A DNA stretch of 52,729 nucleotides, taken from the NCBI GenBank assembly GCA_026388255.1, contig JAPLKC010000082.1, positions 1 to 52,729 on the forward strand, written 5' to 3'. The position numbers and the translations under genes are program-made. Shown in pieces: positions 2,001-6,334 of this stretch. Each line of letters opens with the position of its first letter. The stretch's first letter is position 1. Under the pieces are notes generated by a model that was not told the origin of the DNA, searched no databases, and was given only the letters and a program-made list of their open reading frames with translations. This stretch comes from Pseudomonadota bacterium (GTDB lineage Bacteria; Desulfobacterota; Syntrophorhabdia; Syntrophorhabdales; Syntrophorhabdaceae).

Positions 2001-2588
2001 TTATTGTTCTCCCTCTGTACCTCGGACGATTGCACACGCCCTCAGTTCTTCTATGGAAATCTCTTTCCGTCCCTTAAGCGCCGCCAACAGTTCATAATCA
2101 TAAATAGGCCAGCCATGTTCCAGGTTGAATTCGAGCCACCAATCAGGCAAGTGCTCCAGGGCCAGTTCGAGAACTTCAAATGCCTTCTTCTTGAATTCAT
2201 CGCTAACGCGATGTGCCATAGAGCAGTCTATGTCATCGATGAAAATCTTCCTTATGTCGCCGGGATATCCTATCATGGCAGGATAGGCGAGACACAGCAT
2301 CAGTTTCGCGTTTCTTGTTTCCAACCGGCACCTGCCTTCAGTTATATCCAGGAAGTGGCAATCCCCGACCAGACCGTAAATTTTATGACCTTTATATGGG
2401 AAAGTATTGCAAAACCTGTCGATGAAATTCATAAAGGGGATTTCCAGCTTCCTTGAAACGAATTCGGCTTCTCCAGGCAAAAAATAGGTGATAGTATTCT
2501 TTTCACACCCCCCCCCGCACTCGACGCACAAATCGAACATCATGCCGTCAAACATGCTGTGGAGTTTTTCAAACTCTATGGGTTCCAT
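2001..2588 (-). CDS. YkgJ-like cysteine-cluster protein
   Basis: A 195-residue soluble protein with an N-terminal CxxCxxxC cluster (CVECGGGC, residues about 21-28) and further cysteines near 59, 77, 85, 99 and 122, a pattern like the YkgJ/zinc-or-iron-chelating Cys-cluster family. The start at 2588 has a strong AGGAGGAAG. Within the first Cys cluster the three glycines are encoded by an uninterrupted run of nine G (plus-strand C run at 2508-2516), so one-base slippage would remove nearly the whole protein. It follows the broken EamA gene by 29 bases and shares its operon. Family role is unclear; protein maturation or metal binding are possibilities. Confidence 0.6.
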   Translation of the reverse strand: MEPIEFEKLHSMFDGMMFDLCVECGGGCEKNTITYFLPGEAEFVSRKLEIPFMNFIDRFCNTFPYKGHKIYGLVGDCHFLDITEGRCRLETRNAKLMLCLAYPAMIGYPGDIRKIFIDDIDCSMAHRVSDEFKKKAFEVLELALEHLPDWWLEFNLEHGWPIYDYELLAALKGRKEISIEELRACAIVRGTEGEQ

Positions 2589-2617
2589 TTACTTCCTCCT
2601 GAACACAAGCCATGAAG

Positions 2618-3504
2618 CTACACTATTTCATAGAGCATGAGAAGACCGAGAACCATTATGGAGATAGGTATCAGCTTTGCCAACAGGGGTTGATCGCTGC
2701 AGATGCCGAGCCCCGCGGCATGGCACAGTTTCTCCAGGAATAATACAATAAGCGGCTGAGTTGCCGCTATTGTTGCGACTATCGTAGCCGGAAGCCCCGC
2801 CATGGCAAAATAGATTGTCGCCAATCCGCCGAACGCGAAGCCTTCACTCAAAACAAGCCACTTCAGATTCTTGAACTCCCCCCGAATGCCTCGCCTCGTG
2901 GAGGTATGAAATAAGCCGGCCAATAAGGTTAAACCAATGCTTATTAGGCCCACTGCAAGGCCATTGAATTCCGGCAGTTTGGTTGTGGCAATCTTGATGA
3001 AGAATTCGTGCAACCCCACAAGGACTATCATAGAAGCTATTAGCCACTTTGTGACACCTTTTTTAAGATTGTTGATCCTTGTGGACAGCATTATTGCGCC
3101 GAGAATGACCAGGCCCATCCCGGCATAGGTGAGTAGTGAAAATCTCTCATTGAGAAAGAAAAACGAAAGGATCGCAACCATGATCGGGTAGAGGTACAAA
3201 AGACCGATGATGCTGGAGGCGTCCTCCTTGGAGAACAAGTAATAATATGCGAAATACTGGCTGCCATAGATGAAACCGGCGAGGGCAGGGAAAAGTAAAT
3301 CTCTGAGAGAAGAGACAACGCTCCAATCGAGAAATATCGCCAACATGAGGCCTGCGATGAGCATGACAGCCCCGGACATGACGGTATAACTGGCCGTATT
3401 TGTTACTTCTTTGAAACAGCATATTTGTCCGTAATATTCATCATTCCTTCGAAGAAAGGGGCGAGGATGGCGCAGGTTAAAGGTATGAGGATTGATGTGC
3501 CCAG
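2618..3504 (-). pseudogene. EamA/DMT-family exporter, frameshifted at N-terminus
   Basis: The long frame (2618-3379, 253 residues) shows nine hydrophobic segments and the duplicated EamA fold, but lacks the first helix of this ~290-residue, 10-TM family. That helix is encoded just upstream in another frame: from a CTG at 3504 with AAGGGAG five bases away, or an ATG at 3444, the reading is GTSILIPLTCAILAPFF..., ending ITDKYAVSKK then TAA at 3405-3403. The main frame picks up exactly there with VTNTASYTVMSG. A single indel near 3400-3412 therefore separates them. The upstream part has no ATG/GTG/TTG before 3444. Read as a drug/metabolite exporter gene that is broken, or mis-sequenced. It sits directly behind the SET genes. 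Confidence 0.65.
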
Positions 3505-3514
3505 ACCCGCTCCC

Positions 3515-4111
3515 TTAAGACTGCCCTTTGGGGTTGGACAATTTTTTCAGATTTTTCATAATATATTCCGGTATAATTCCAAGCCTTATATATGCCTGCT
3601 GAGTATCCTCGGGGAGATACTTGAAATCCCGTATCCGCTTCCTGCACTTTTCGCTGCCGCAGCAGCAGTCCATCTCCCAGTCGTCTTCGTCCATTGTGGT
3701 TGAATAGTCAAAGGTGATTTCTTCGTCTTTATTTATTTCTCTCAGGGCAATCAATGCTACCCCCCCCCTGACCGCATCGCCTGCGGGAATGATCAATGCC
3801 GCATTCGGATCGCAGGAATGATTGATAAAATCATCGAAATCGCCTGTCGGACCCATGTAAAGGTTGTCGCCTACCTGAACCCATCTATCTTCCGTTGCAT
3901 CATAGGGGTAAGGGAGTTGTTCGTAAGTGCATAACTCGGCTTTGCATACGAAGATCGTTTCTCCAGCCTTGAATTTCTTTCCGGCAAAAACACCCTTCCC
4001 GTGCTTGCAATCTTTTAAAATCAAAACAGGATTGCCTTCGCCGGTGCATGCGTTGGGTCTTGGTTCGCTCAAAACCATCTCTCCAGAATCACTCTTTAAT
4101 GCCGATGGCAT
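3515..4111 (-). CDS. SET-domain protein-lysine methyltransferase-like protein 1
   Basis: About 198 residues. After a unique N-terminal 28 residues comes a compact SET domain: 'LKDCKHGKGVFAGKKFKAGE' (SET-N), INHSCDPNAAL (NHxCxPN pseudoknot motif binding SAM), ITFDYS, and a post-SET zinc motif CCCGSEKC. All catalytic landmarks are present, so a SAM-dependent amine/lysine methyltransferase activity is expected; the substrate is unknown. The ATG at 4111 lies inside the end of the preceding SET gene (23-bp overlap), indicating translational coupling. Its C-terminal half is nearly identical at DNA level to the upstream copy, and it contains a run of nine G encoding Arg-Gly-Gly (3760-3768). The stop is followed at once by the EamA gene. 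Confidence 0.85.
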   Translation of the reverse strand: MPSALKSDSGEMVLSEPRPNACTGEGNPVLILKDCKHGKGVFAGKKFKAGETIFVCKAELCTYEQLPYPYDATEDRWVQVGDNLYMGPTGDFDDFINHSCDPNAALIIPAGDAVRGGVALIALREINKDEEITFDYSTTMDEDDWEMDCCCGSEKCRKRIRDFKYLPEDTQQAYIRLGIIPEYIMKNLKKLSNPKGQS

Positions 4112-4619
4112 TCTTTAGCTTCTTCATAATATAATCCGGCACAATGCCCAGTCTGATGTATTTCTCCTGAGTATCCTCGGGGAGATACTTGAAATCCCGT
4201 ATCCGCTTCCTGCACTTTTCACTGCCGCAACCACAGTCCATCTCCCAGTCGTCTTCATCCATTGTAGTTGAATAGTCAAAGGTGATTTCTTCGTCTTCAT
4301 TTATTTCTCTCAGGGCAATCAATGCTACCCCCCCCCTGACCGCATCGCCTGCGGGAATGATCAGCGCCGCATTCGGGTTACAGGAATGGTTAATGTAATC
4401 ATCGATATCGCCTGAAGGCCCCATAAAAAGGTTGTGGCCTACCTGAACATAGCGGTCTTCCACCAAACAAAGGTCGGCTTGTTCTTCATACGTCATGAAA
4501 TTCCCCTTGAATTCAATGATCATTTCTCCGGCCTTGAATTTCCTTCCTGCAAATACACCTTTCCCGTGTTTTGCATCTTTTAAGATGAGGTCGGGCAGGC
4601 TTTTATCTATACTTTTCAT
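4089..4619 (-). CDS. SET-domain protein-lysine methyltransferase-like protein 2
   Basis: A 176-residue, essentially SET-only protein: GKGVFAGRKFKAGEMI, then INHSCNPNAAL, ITFDYSTTMDEDDWEM, and the post-SET CGCGSEKC. These are the SAM pseudoknot, catalytic Tyr and zinc-binding features of the fold. Its ATG (4619) overlaps the end of SET protein 3 by 17 bp and is preceded by GAGGAAG. From its middle to the C-terminus it matches SET protein 1 almost base for base (about 190 bp), a tandem duplication. It also has the nine-G run (4328-4336) at the same DAVRGGVAL position. Small bacterial SET proteins are known but their targets are mostly undetermined. Confidence 0.85.
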   Translation of the reverse strand: MKSIDKSLPDLILKDAKHGKGVFAGRKFKAGEMIIEFKGNFMTYEEQADLCLVEDRYVQVGHNLFMGPSGDIDDYINHSCNPNAALIIPAGDAVRGGVALIALREINEDEEITFDYSTTMDEDDWEMDCGCGSEKCRKRIRDFKYLPEDTQEKYIRLGIVPDYIMKKLKNAIGIKE

Positions 4620-5088
4620 ATGACTTCCTCAACGCTCGCGGAACATAGGGTTCATATTTCTTGTACATCTCTTCCGGCAGGAACCGGATGCTCCTGATGA
4701 TCTTCCTGCATCCTCTCTTCCCGCATCTGCACTCCATTTCCCAGTAAGGATCATCTTCAGTGATGGAGTAATCAATCGTTACTTCCTCCCCCCCCCTGAT
4801 ATCCTTCATGGCCACAACAGTGACTTTGCCTTGTATACCCACATTCGGATCGCATGAATGGTTGATGTAGCGCCAGGGATTTACATCAAAGGGGCTGAGC
4901 CATAGGCCTTCTCGTATCCAGAGCCAATAGGGTCCTGTCAGGTAATCGTCATTGTAGTCATCTTCTACGAGAGTCCCTTTGGCAACAAAAACAATTTCAC
5001 CTTCTTTAATATCTATTTTGGCAAAAAGACCTTTGCCAATATGCCCGGTGGGCGCAACATATACCTTTTTGTGTTTTTCTATCGACAT
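4603..5088 (-). CDS. SET-domain protein-lysine methyltransferase-like protein 3
   Basis: About 161 residues when started at the ATG at 5088, one base after the stop of the upstream dehydrogenase; a longer frame to 5247 overlaps that gene and is less likely. The SET core shows GHIGKGLFAKIDIKEGE, YINHSCDPNVG, VTIDYS and a post-SET CRCGKRGC. It is clearly diverged from SET proteins 1 and 2 (conserved motifs only), so it is an older paralogue, not part of the recent duplication. It too has a nine-G run (4788-4796), but in a different motif (KDIRGGEEV), so the tract was not inherited with the others. No Shine-Dalgarno is obvious, consistent with translational coupling. Confidence 0.85.
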   Translation of the reverse strand: MSIEKHKKVYVAPTGHIGKGLFAKIDIKEGEIVFVAKGTLVEDDYNDDYLTGPYWLWIREGLWLSPFDVNPWRYINHSCDPNVGIQGKVTVVAMKDIRGGEEVTIDYSITEDDPYWEMECRCGKRGCRKIIRSIRFLPEEMYKKYEPYVPRALRKSYEKYR

Positions 5089-5089
5089 T

Positions 5090-6334
5090 TTATCCACTAT
5101 TTCCGCCACAGGGCTGAGATTTGCCGGAATATTCCTGCGTGATTCTCGGATTGTGGGATGACAAGCACAGTCCGCTTTCATGTTTTTCAAATACGAATTC
5201 CTGCACCTGCATCCTGTTAAATACATAGGTTCCAAAGTAAGCGCCATATAAATCTTCCACGAAATAGGCGCCCTTCTCCAGTTTGTCCGTAATCAGTGTC
5301 AGGAGCGCCGCAATGACCCCGGTTGCCACCTGGGTATAAGTTGCATTTGTGCCTGTAATGGTTTTATTTGCTATGGAATTGAAGTAATATACCGTCTTAT
5401 CGGAATATTCCATCAATACGCCGATATTGTCCGCCCCGTCCAGCGTGAGACATGTATTATCGCCGAGCAGAACATCCTCGAAAAGCAGCCTGCCCTTCTT
5501 CCGGTATGTGTTGATCAATGCCCGCATGGTCTGGATATTGATCGCATAGACGAATTTTGCCGTCAGATCGTATTTCTGCGAAAGGCTGACTATCTCATCG
5601 TGGGGTACGATAAACCCCTCCGGGTATTCTTTAAGGGACAATATAGGAGACAGTATGGCCTCCATATTTTTCCTGTTTTCAACGGCGTTGGGAAGATACT
5701 CCATTGGATTGTCCTTTCCCATCATCACAATAGACGGTTCCTCTGAAACCTCCTCCAGAAACTTCTTTACGGACCAGGTAACCATGGGGTGCTCATTTGT
5801 CGCGGTCTGCGAGGTGTCATACTCGAAAACAACTATCTTTTGTGGCACGCCGAACTTTTCGATCCCGTGCCTTGCCCACATGTTCACAACACCGGGGTTC
5901 ATGCCGGTACTCAGGATGTGCACGGCATTCCTGAATTCCTCTCTTTTGGCCCAGAATTCAAGAACATGCTCATGGGTTTTTTTCGGCCCGTTGATGCTTG
6001 TATTGACGTAACTCACACCAGCCCTGTCTGTGGCATATAATATGGGAAGGGTTTCATCGTCCGTGACATCAAGGACAATACCCACATCGCTGTCCTTCAA
6101 CAGGCGTTTATAGCGATCCTCATCCCGGGGCAAAGAGATAGCTTCGTTCAGGAACAGATAATCGAGTCTCTTGTGATCGATAAATTCATTGGAGAGTATT
6201 CTTTTGCTCTTATCGAGGAGAATCAGTTTGTCAAATAATTCCCGATGATCAACAAGGTAAATAAGCGACGCTGTTCCAACCCCTCCGGATGCTCCAAGTA
6301 TCAGCAGATTAGGTTTTTTGTTAAGTTTAATCAT
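5090..6334 (-). CDS. Homospermidine synthase / saccharopine dehydrogenase-like oxidoreductase
   Basis: A 414-residue protein opening with a Rossmann fold (LLILGASGGVGTAS) and carrying the block STGMNPGVVNMWARHGIE, which resembles the conserved substrate region of homospermidine synthase and the related carboxynorspermidine dehydrogenases. These NAD(P)-dependent enzymes join a polyamine to an aldehyde through a Schiff base. Position right behind arginine decarboxylase (20 bases) supports a polyamine role. The exact reaction cannot be read from sequence: homospermidine formation, or a carboxy-polyamine dehydrogenase step on putrescine or agmatine, are the candidates. The last ~35 residues look unlike the family and may reflect a late indel. 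The start at 6334 is the only good one. Confidence 0.65.
   Translation of the reverse strand: MIKLNKKPNLLILGASGGVGTASLIYLVDHRELFDKLILLDKSKRILSNEFIDHKRLDYLFLNEAISLPRDEDRYKRLLKDSDVGIVLDVTDDETLPILYATDRAGVSYVNTSINGPKKTHEHVLEFWAKREEFRNAVHILSTGMNPGVVNMWARHGIEKFGVPQKIVVFEYDTSQTATNEHPMVTWSVKKFLEEVSEEPSIVMMGKDNPMEYLPNAVENRKNMEAILSPILSLKEYPEGFIVPHDEIVSLSQKYDLTAKFVYAINIQTMRALINTYRKKGRLLFEDVLLGDNTCLTLDGADNIGVLMEYSDKTVYYFNSIANKTITGTNATYTQVATGVIAALLTLITDKLEKGAYFVEDLYGAYFGTYVFNRMQVQEFVFEKHESGLCLSSHNPRITQEYSGKSQPCGGNSG

Follow-up and report, generated by a model that had tools for sequence, protein, structure and literature searches.

The window, that is, the whole 52.7 kb stretch of DNA that was analysed, holds a co-directional series of genes that we treat as an operon, in the order arginine decarboxylase, saccharopine-dehydrogenase-like protein, SET3, SET2, SET1, EamA transporter and a Cys-motif protein (Table 1). 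The Cys-motif gene and the three SET genes each contain a run of nine G. A preliminary description of this DNA had listed these runs, and its coordinates proved exact: all four lie on the minus strand, which is the coding strand, and each is in frame, as had been stated, inside a reading frame that stays open across the tract.

Table 1. Genes of the operon and their G9 tracts, by position in the window
Feature	Position	Strand	Remarks
G9, Cys-motif gene	2508..2516	-	TGC GGG GGG GGG TGT, CECGGGC, codons 25-27 of 195
G9, SET1	3760..3768	-	AGG GGG GGG GTA, AVRGGVA, from codon 115 of 198
G9, SET2	4328..4336	-	site equivalent to SET1 tract by paralogy
G9, SET3	4788..4796	-	AGG GGG GGG GAG, IRGGEEV, from codon 151 of 214; motif unlike SET1/2
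Cys-motif protein, 195 aa	2001..2588	-	without Pfam or NCBIfam family
EamA transporter gene	2618..3510	-	N-terminal part in another frame
SET1, 198 aa, SET domain	3515..4111	-	ORF and Pfam SET
SET2, 176 aa, SET domain	4089..4619	-	ORF overlaps SET1 and SET3
SET3, 214 aa as listed, SET domain	4603..5247	-	later start possible
Saccharopine-dehydrogenase-like protein, 414 aa	5090..6334	-	without G tract
Pyruvoyl-dependent arginine decarboxylase, 181 aa	6355..6900	-	without G tract

Predicted products

SET1, SET2 and SET3 all match the Pfam SET domain, and their alignment has the invariant residues N97 H98 S99 C100, D135 Y136 and C149 C151 C156, so that each shows the NHSC and DY motifs and the post-SET cysteine cluster of SET domains. 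An AlphaFold model of SET1 from a six-row alignment reached a pLDDT of 44, too poor for placing the tract in the structure. From the arginine decarboxylase in the operon and by analogy with BurB, a SET-domain methionine S-methyltransferase of the DMSP synthesis pathway (PDB 9l4t, PMC12542666), a metabolic role in amino-acid or polyamine chemistry would be a guess for the SET proteins. The Cys-motif protein carries a CxxCGGGC motif; the earlier label 'YkgJ-like', for a family with a CxxCxxCC Cys cluster, is not supported, since neither Pfam (searched up to E 5) nor NCBIfam gave a match. In the EamA gene there is a frameshift at about 3400-3412 relative to a Woesearchaeota homologue; the site has no G run or other homopolymer, and the frameshift is compatible with either decay or an assembly error.

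Computed effect of tract length changes

Adding or removing one or two G in any of the tracts truncates the product, the new frame ending within 29 codons or fewer. The Cys-motif protein would end at residue 27-53 of 195, with nearly everything lost, SET1 at 117-127 of 198, SET2 at 97-107 of 176 and SET3 at 155-158 of 214. In the SET proteins these truncation points fall after NHSC and before the tyrosine of DY. Replacing Tyr124 of BurB by Ala leaves almost no activity (PMC12542666), and we take this residue to be the equivalent of the DY tyrosine in SET1-3. As at contingency loci, then, each repeat is slippable and in frame, and a change of its length is predicted by this computation to turn the gene OFF. 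Since the SET3, SET2 and SET1 ORFs overlap, polar effects are possible, although translational coupling through the overlaps could at most make slips in an upstream gene polar.

Tract statistics

No G or C run of eight or more occurs in the window except the four G9 tracts; run lengths from four upwards are distributed as 4 (207 runs), 5 (33), 6 (12), 7 (3) and 9 (4). Matches to G8 number eight against 1.6 expected, a count reached by none of 100 dinucleotide shuffles. When codons were shuffled with the proteins kept the same, the mean was 0.16 tracts across all 39 genes of the window, and three or more tracts in the four genes were never obtained (0 of 20,000 shuffles). GGG accounts for 21% of Gly codons in the window and AGG for 35% of Arg codons; by this usage an all-G spelling has a chance of about 1.5% for each RGG and of 0.9% for GGG. 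None of the six further GGG peptides listed for the window is spelled in G alone. Protein sequence and codon usage do not explain the tracts, which are over-represented beyond the needs of both, and their clustering is real and non-random.

The genome is a 3.83 Mb draft in 147 contigs, 98% complete. It contains 15 distinct runs of nine or more G, four of them within these 2.3 kb. By codon scoring the remaining 11 are all intergenic, and no hidden out-of-frame coding was found among them, even after shortening by one or two bases; coding tracts of this length are confined to this operon. For eight genomes of the same family, a simple codon score, with tracts at contig edges left out, gave approximate counts of at least 63 intergenic, at least 8 coding-sense and at least 2 coding-antisense tracts. 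A further tract in one of the family (L248) is possibly coding out of frame, and when the relatives' tracts were retested for out-of-frame coding, up to three were found (L227, L248, L270). The family strongly disfavours coding tracts, and the present cluster is exceptional, with a naive p of about 1e-6, on approximate counts, for three tracts in 2.3 kb.

Elsewhere in the genome, two paralogous upstream regions (G000:C103 and C128; 89% identity over 235 bp) have a G17 (L049 1442-1458) and a G9 (L050 1477-1485) at the equivalent position. The ORFs that follow, some 50 bases further on, begin with MTEINN, and the one of C128 has PAS domains. The pair is direct evidence of tract length changing over time in this genome, and as a place to look for a variable upstream tract it is more promising than the operon of the window.

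Repair background

Neither this genome nor any of the 34 same-order relatives tested, most of which are more than 90% complete, has MutS domain I; of 10 other families of the phylum 7 have it, as do 11 of 14 controls. With MutS domain I missing, slippage should be poorly repaired. The order as a whole may have lost MutS1. The genome does have a MutS2-like gene, with MutS_V and Smr domains, and this gene keeps a G8 at the equivalent place here and in the congener (L081, L068, 1502-1509).

Relationships among the tracts

SET1 and SET2 are tandem paralogues with 74% identity in alignment. Their DNA is identical at 30 of 30 positions over codons 111-120 and strongly diverged in the first half, a pattern suggestive of duplication followed by gene conversion. 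Because of this identity in tandem paralogues, the SET1 and SET2 tracts are counted as one event. The SET3 tract occupies another alignment column (IRGGEEV, not AVRGGVA), which supports the independent origin proposed for it earlier, and the tracts of the operon thus have three independent origins. In the 23 SET homologues inspected the longest G run is 2-5 and the tract is missing; it is likewise absent from three SET relatives with 47-56% identity.

Interpretation

The reading that we prefer, with a probability of roughly 45%, is that the four G9 tracts are replication-slippage hot spots in co-directional genes of a lineage without MutS1, and that they switch these genes ON and OFF stochastically, gene by gene. 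A slip of one or two G in either direction would bring an early stop: the SET proteins would end ahead of their SET tyrosine, and the Cys-motif protein would be deprived of nearly all of its length. Each gene would be ON at G9 or OFF by itself, at random and reversibly, and the population would be mixed for SET states. Slippage in the living cell, and selection that has kept or built the cluster, are what we infer. That the tracts are slippage hot spots had been proposed in the preliminary description, and the potential for it is supported by the G9 length, the missing MutS domain I, the truncating frameshifts and clustering far above chance. The switching had also been called coordinated, which is unsupported: separate tracts slip independently of one another, so that the four would yield combinatorial, uncoordinated states, and upstream of the operon we found no tract in common that could serve as a joint switch.

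Against dedicated phase variation stand the in-frame G9 tracts in genes of related genomes (see below) and the kind of products predicted here, enzymes and a transporter with no obvious surface antigens among them. A length of exactly nine also tells against it, because frame selection, together with insertion bias, predicts G9. A more specific form, in which the three SET genes and the Cys-motif gene make up a multi-tract combinatorial contingency locus that phase-varies small-molecule or protein methylation by stand-alone SET enzymes, we consider doubtful.

The tracts may quite possibly be a functionless by-product, at odds that we put below even: without MutS, G runs would grow by insertion-biased slippage until frame selection holds their length at some multiple of three, here G9, and genes that look recently acquired and weakly constrained would not have been purged of them. 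A model with insertion bias and frame selection does have its equilibrium peak of tract length at G9 (PMC4085013). Relatives carry in-frame G9 in the genes for Obg (L284), PurL (L279), LptD (L226), TonB (L264) and isoamylase; in the Obg GTPase gene of the same-family genome G024 the tract runs from codon 41 of L284 (PDGGNGGRGGDVVV). In-frame G9 in such housekeeping genes means that G9 alone is not diagnostic of a contingency gene, and that this repair-poor family is one in which in-frame G9 is tolerated. The EamA frameshift would also fit weak constraint, as would the lack of the operon genes in relatives. Neither the saccharopine-dehydrogenase-like nor the Cys-motif gene was found in the congener or the phylum sample, apart from one weak match (31%) to the congener; for the Cys-motif protein the phylum sample comprised 394 other genomes, none of which yielded it, and the SET proteins met only weak similarity in the congener and phylum sample. 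Close homologues for a comparison of tract length were found neither in the congener nor in the remaining phylum sample or plasmids. Against the by-product explanation, three independent tracts in 2.3 kb are unlikely at the family's coding rate, a dN/dS of 0.28 between SET1 and SET2 points to purifying selection, and all four tracts are in frame, which mere decay of the genes would not lead one to expect. Between the two, stochastic gene-by-gene switching is slightly favoured.

It is improbable that the operon came from a poly-G-rich donor and that the tracts were carried in with it, functionless here. Absence of its genes from the congener and phylum sample would agree with such an origin, as would the nearest match in gene order, a Woesearchaeota metagenome-assembled genome in which SET, saccharopine-dehydrogenase-like and EamA genes adjoin (L036 6001-8642, compare window 2618-6334). 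That neighbourhood is without the tract, however: in SET homologues from there and from other sources no G run exceeds five, and among the matches listed, 9 of 10 archaeal or related operon regions lack any G run of seven or more. In the Woesearchaeota phylum, 10 genomes out of 371 carry related dehydrogenase-like genes, and no close homologue of the saccharopine-dehydrogenase-like or the Cys-motif protein was found in viral contigs. 

Whatever the source of the tracts, the operon itself may have been acquired horizontally, and the shared neighbourhood of SET, saccharopine-dehydrogenase-like and EamA genes, judged from gene order, may point to a mobile metabolic module.

A sequencing or assembly artefact in homopolymers is very unlikely, since the two paralogous tracts of SET1 and SET2 agree, even if the assembly is a draft of many contigs and may have introduced the EamA frameshift. 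Homopolymer miscalling was rejected as a cause because all four frames are kept in otherwise open genes, unlike what random length errors would produce.

If the tracts vary, as gene-by-gene switching would have it, homopolymer phase variation would take in SET methyltransferases as well as an order that lacks MutS1, and would provide a case outside the host-associated pathogens in which phase variation has mostly been studied. If they are invariant, they would caution that MutS-less lineages build up in-frame G9, essential genes included, and that by itself it is no evidence of switching.

Comparison with known systems

BurB resembles the SET proteins here in being a small bacterial SET protein, and the SET profile matches it (E=7.6e-13). 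It acts on a small molecule and, unlike them, belongs to the DMSP synthesis pathway. We know of no slippage tract in BurB.

Campylobacter jejuni NCTC11168 has 29 poly-G/poly-C tracts of seven or more (PMC4965091). The operon shares with its contingency loci poly-G of similar length within reading frames, where a one-G slip truncates the product, and several tracts per genome, which give combinatorial states. In C. jejuni the variation has been measured and mostly concerns surface-modification genes, whereas here the genes encode SET and Cys-motif proteins and the tracts were read from one genome sequence.

In Neisseria meningitidis, in-frame G9 is the established ON state of the phase-variable gene hmbR (PMC4085013, PMC5084427); by analogy, G9 would be the ON state in the operon. 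Tracts of eight or more are mostly variable in the meningococcus (PMC5084427), and loss of mismatch repair raises switching nearly a thousandfold at the short tracts G5-G8, not at G10-G13 (PMC4085013), a loss with which the absence of MutS domain I from the operon's lineage may be compared. N. meningitidis normally has MutS and MutL, unlike the lineage here; its known phase-variable genes encode receptors, transporters and surface enzymes, and their polymorphism among strains is documented.
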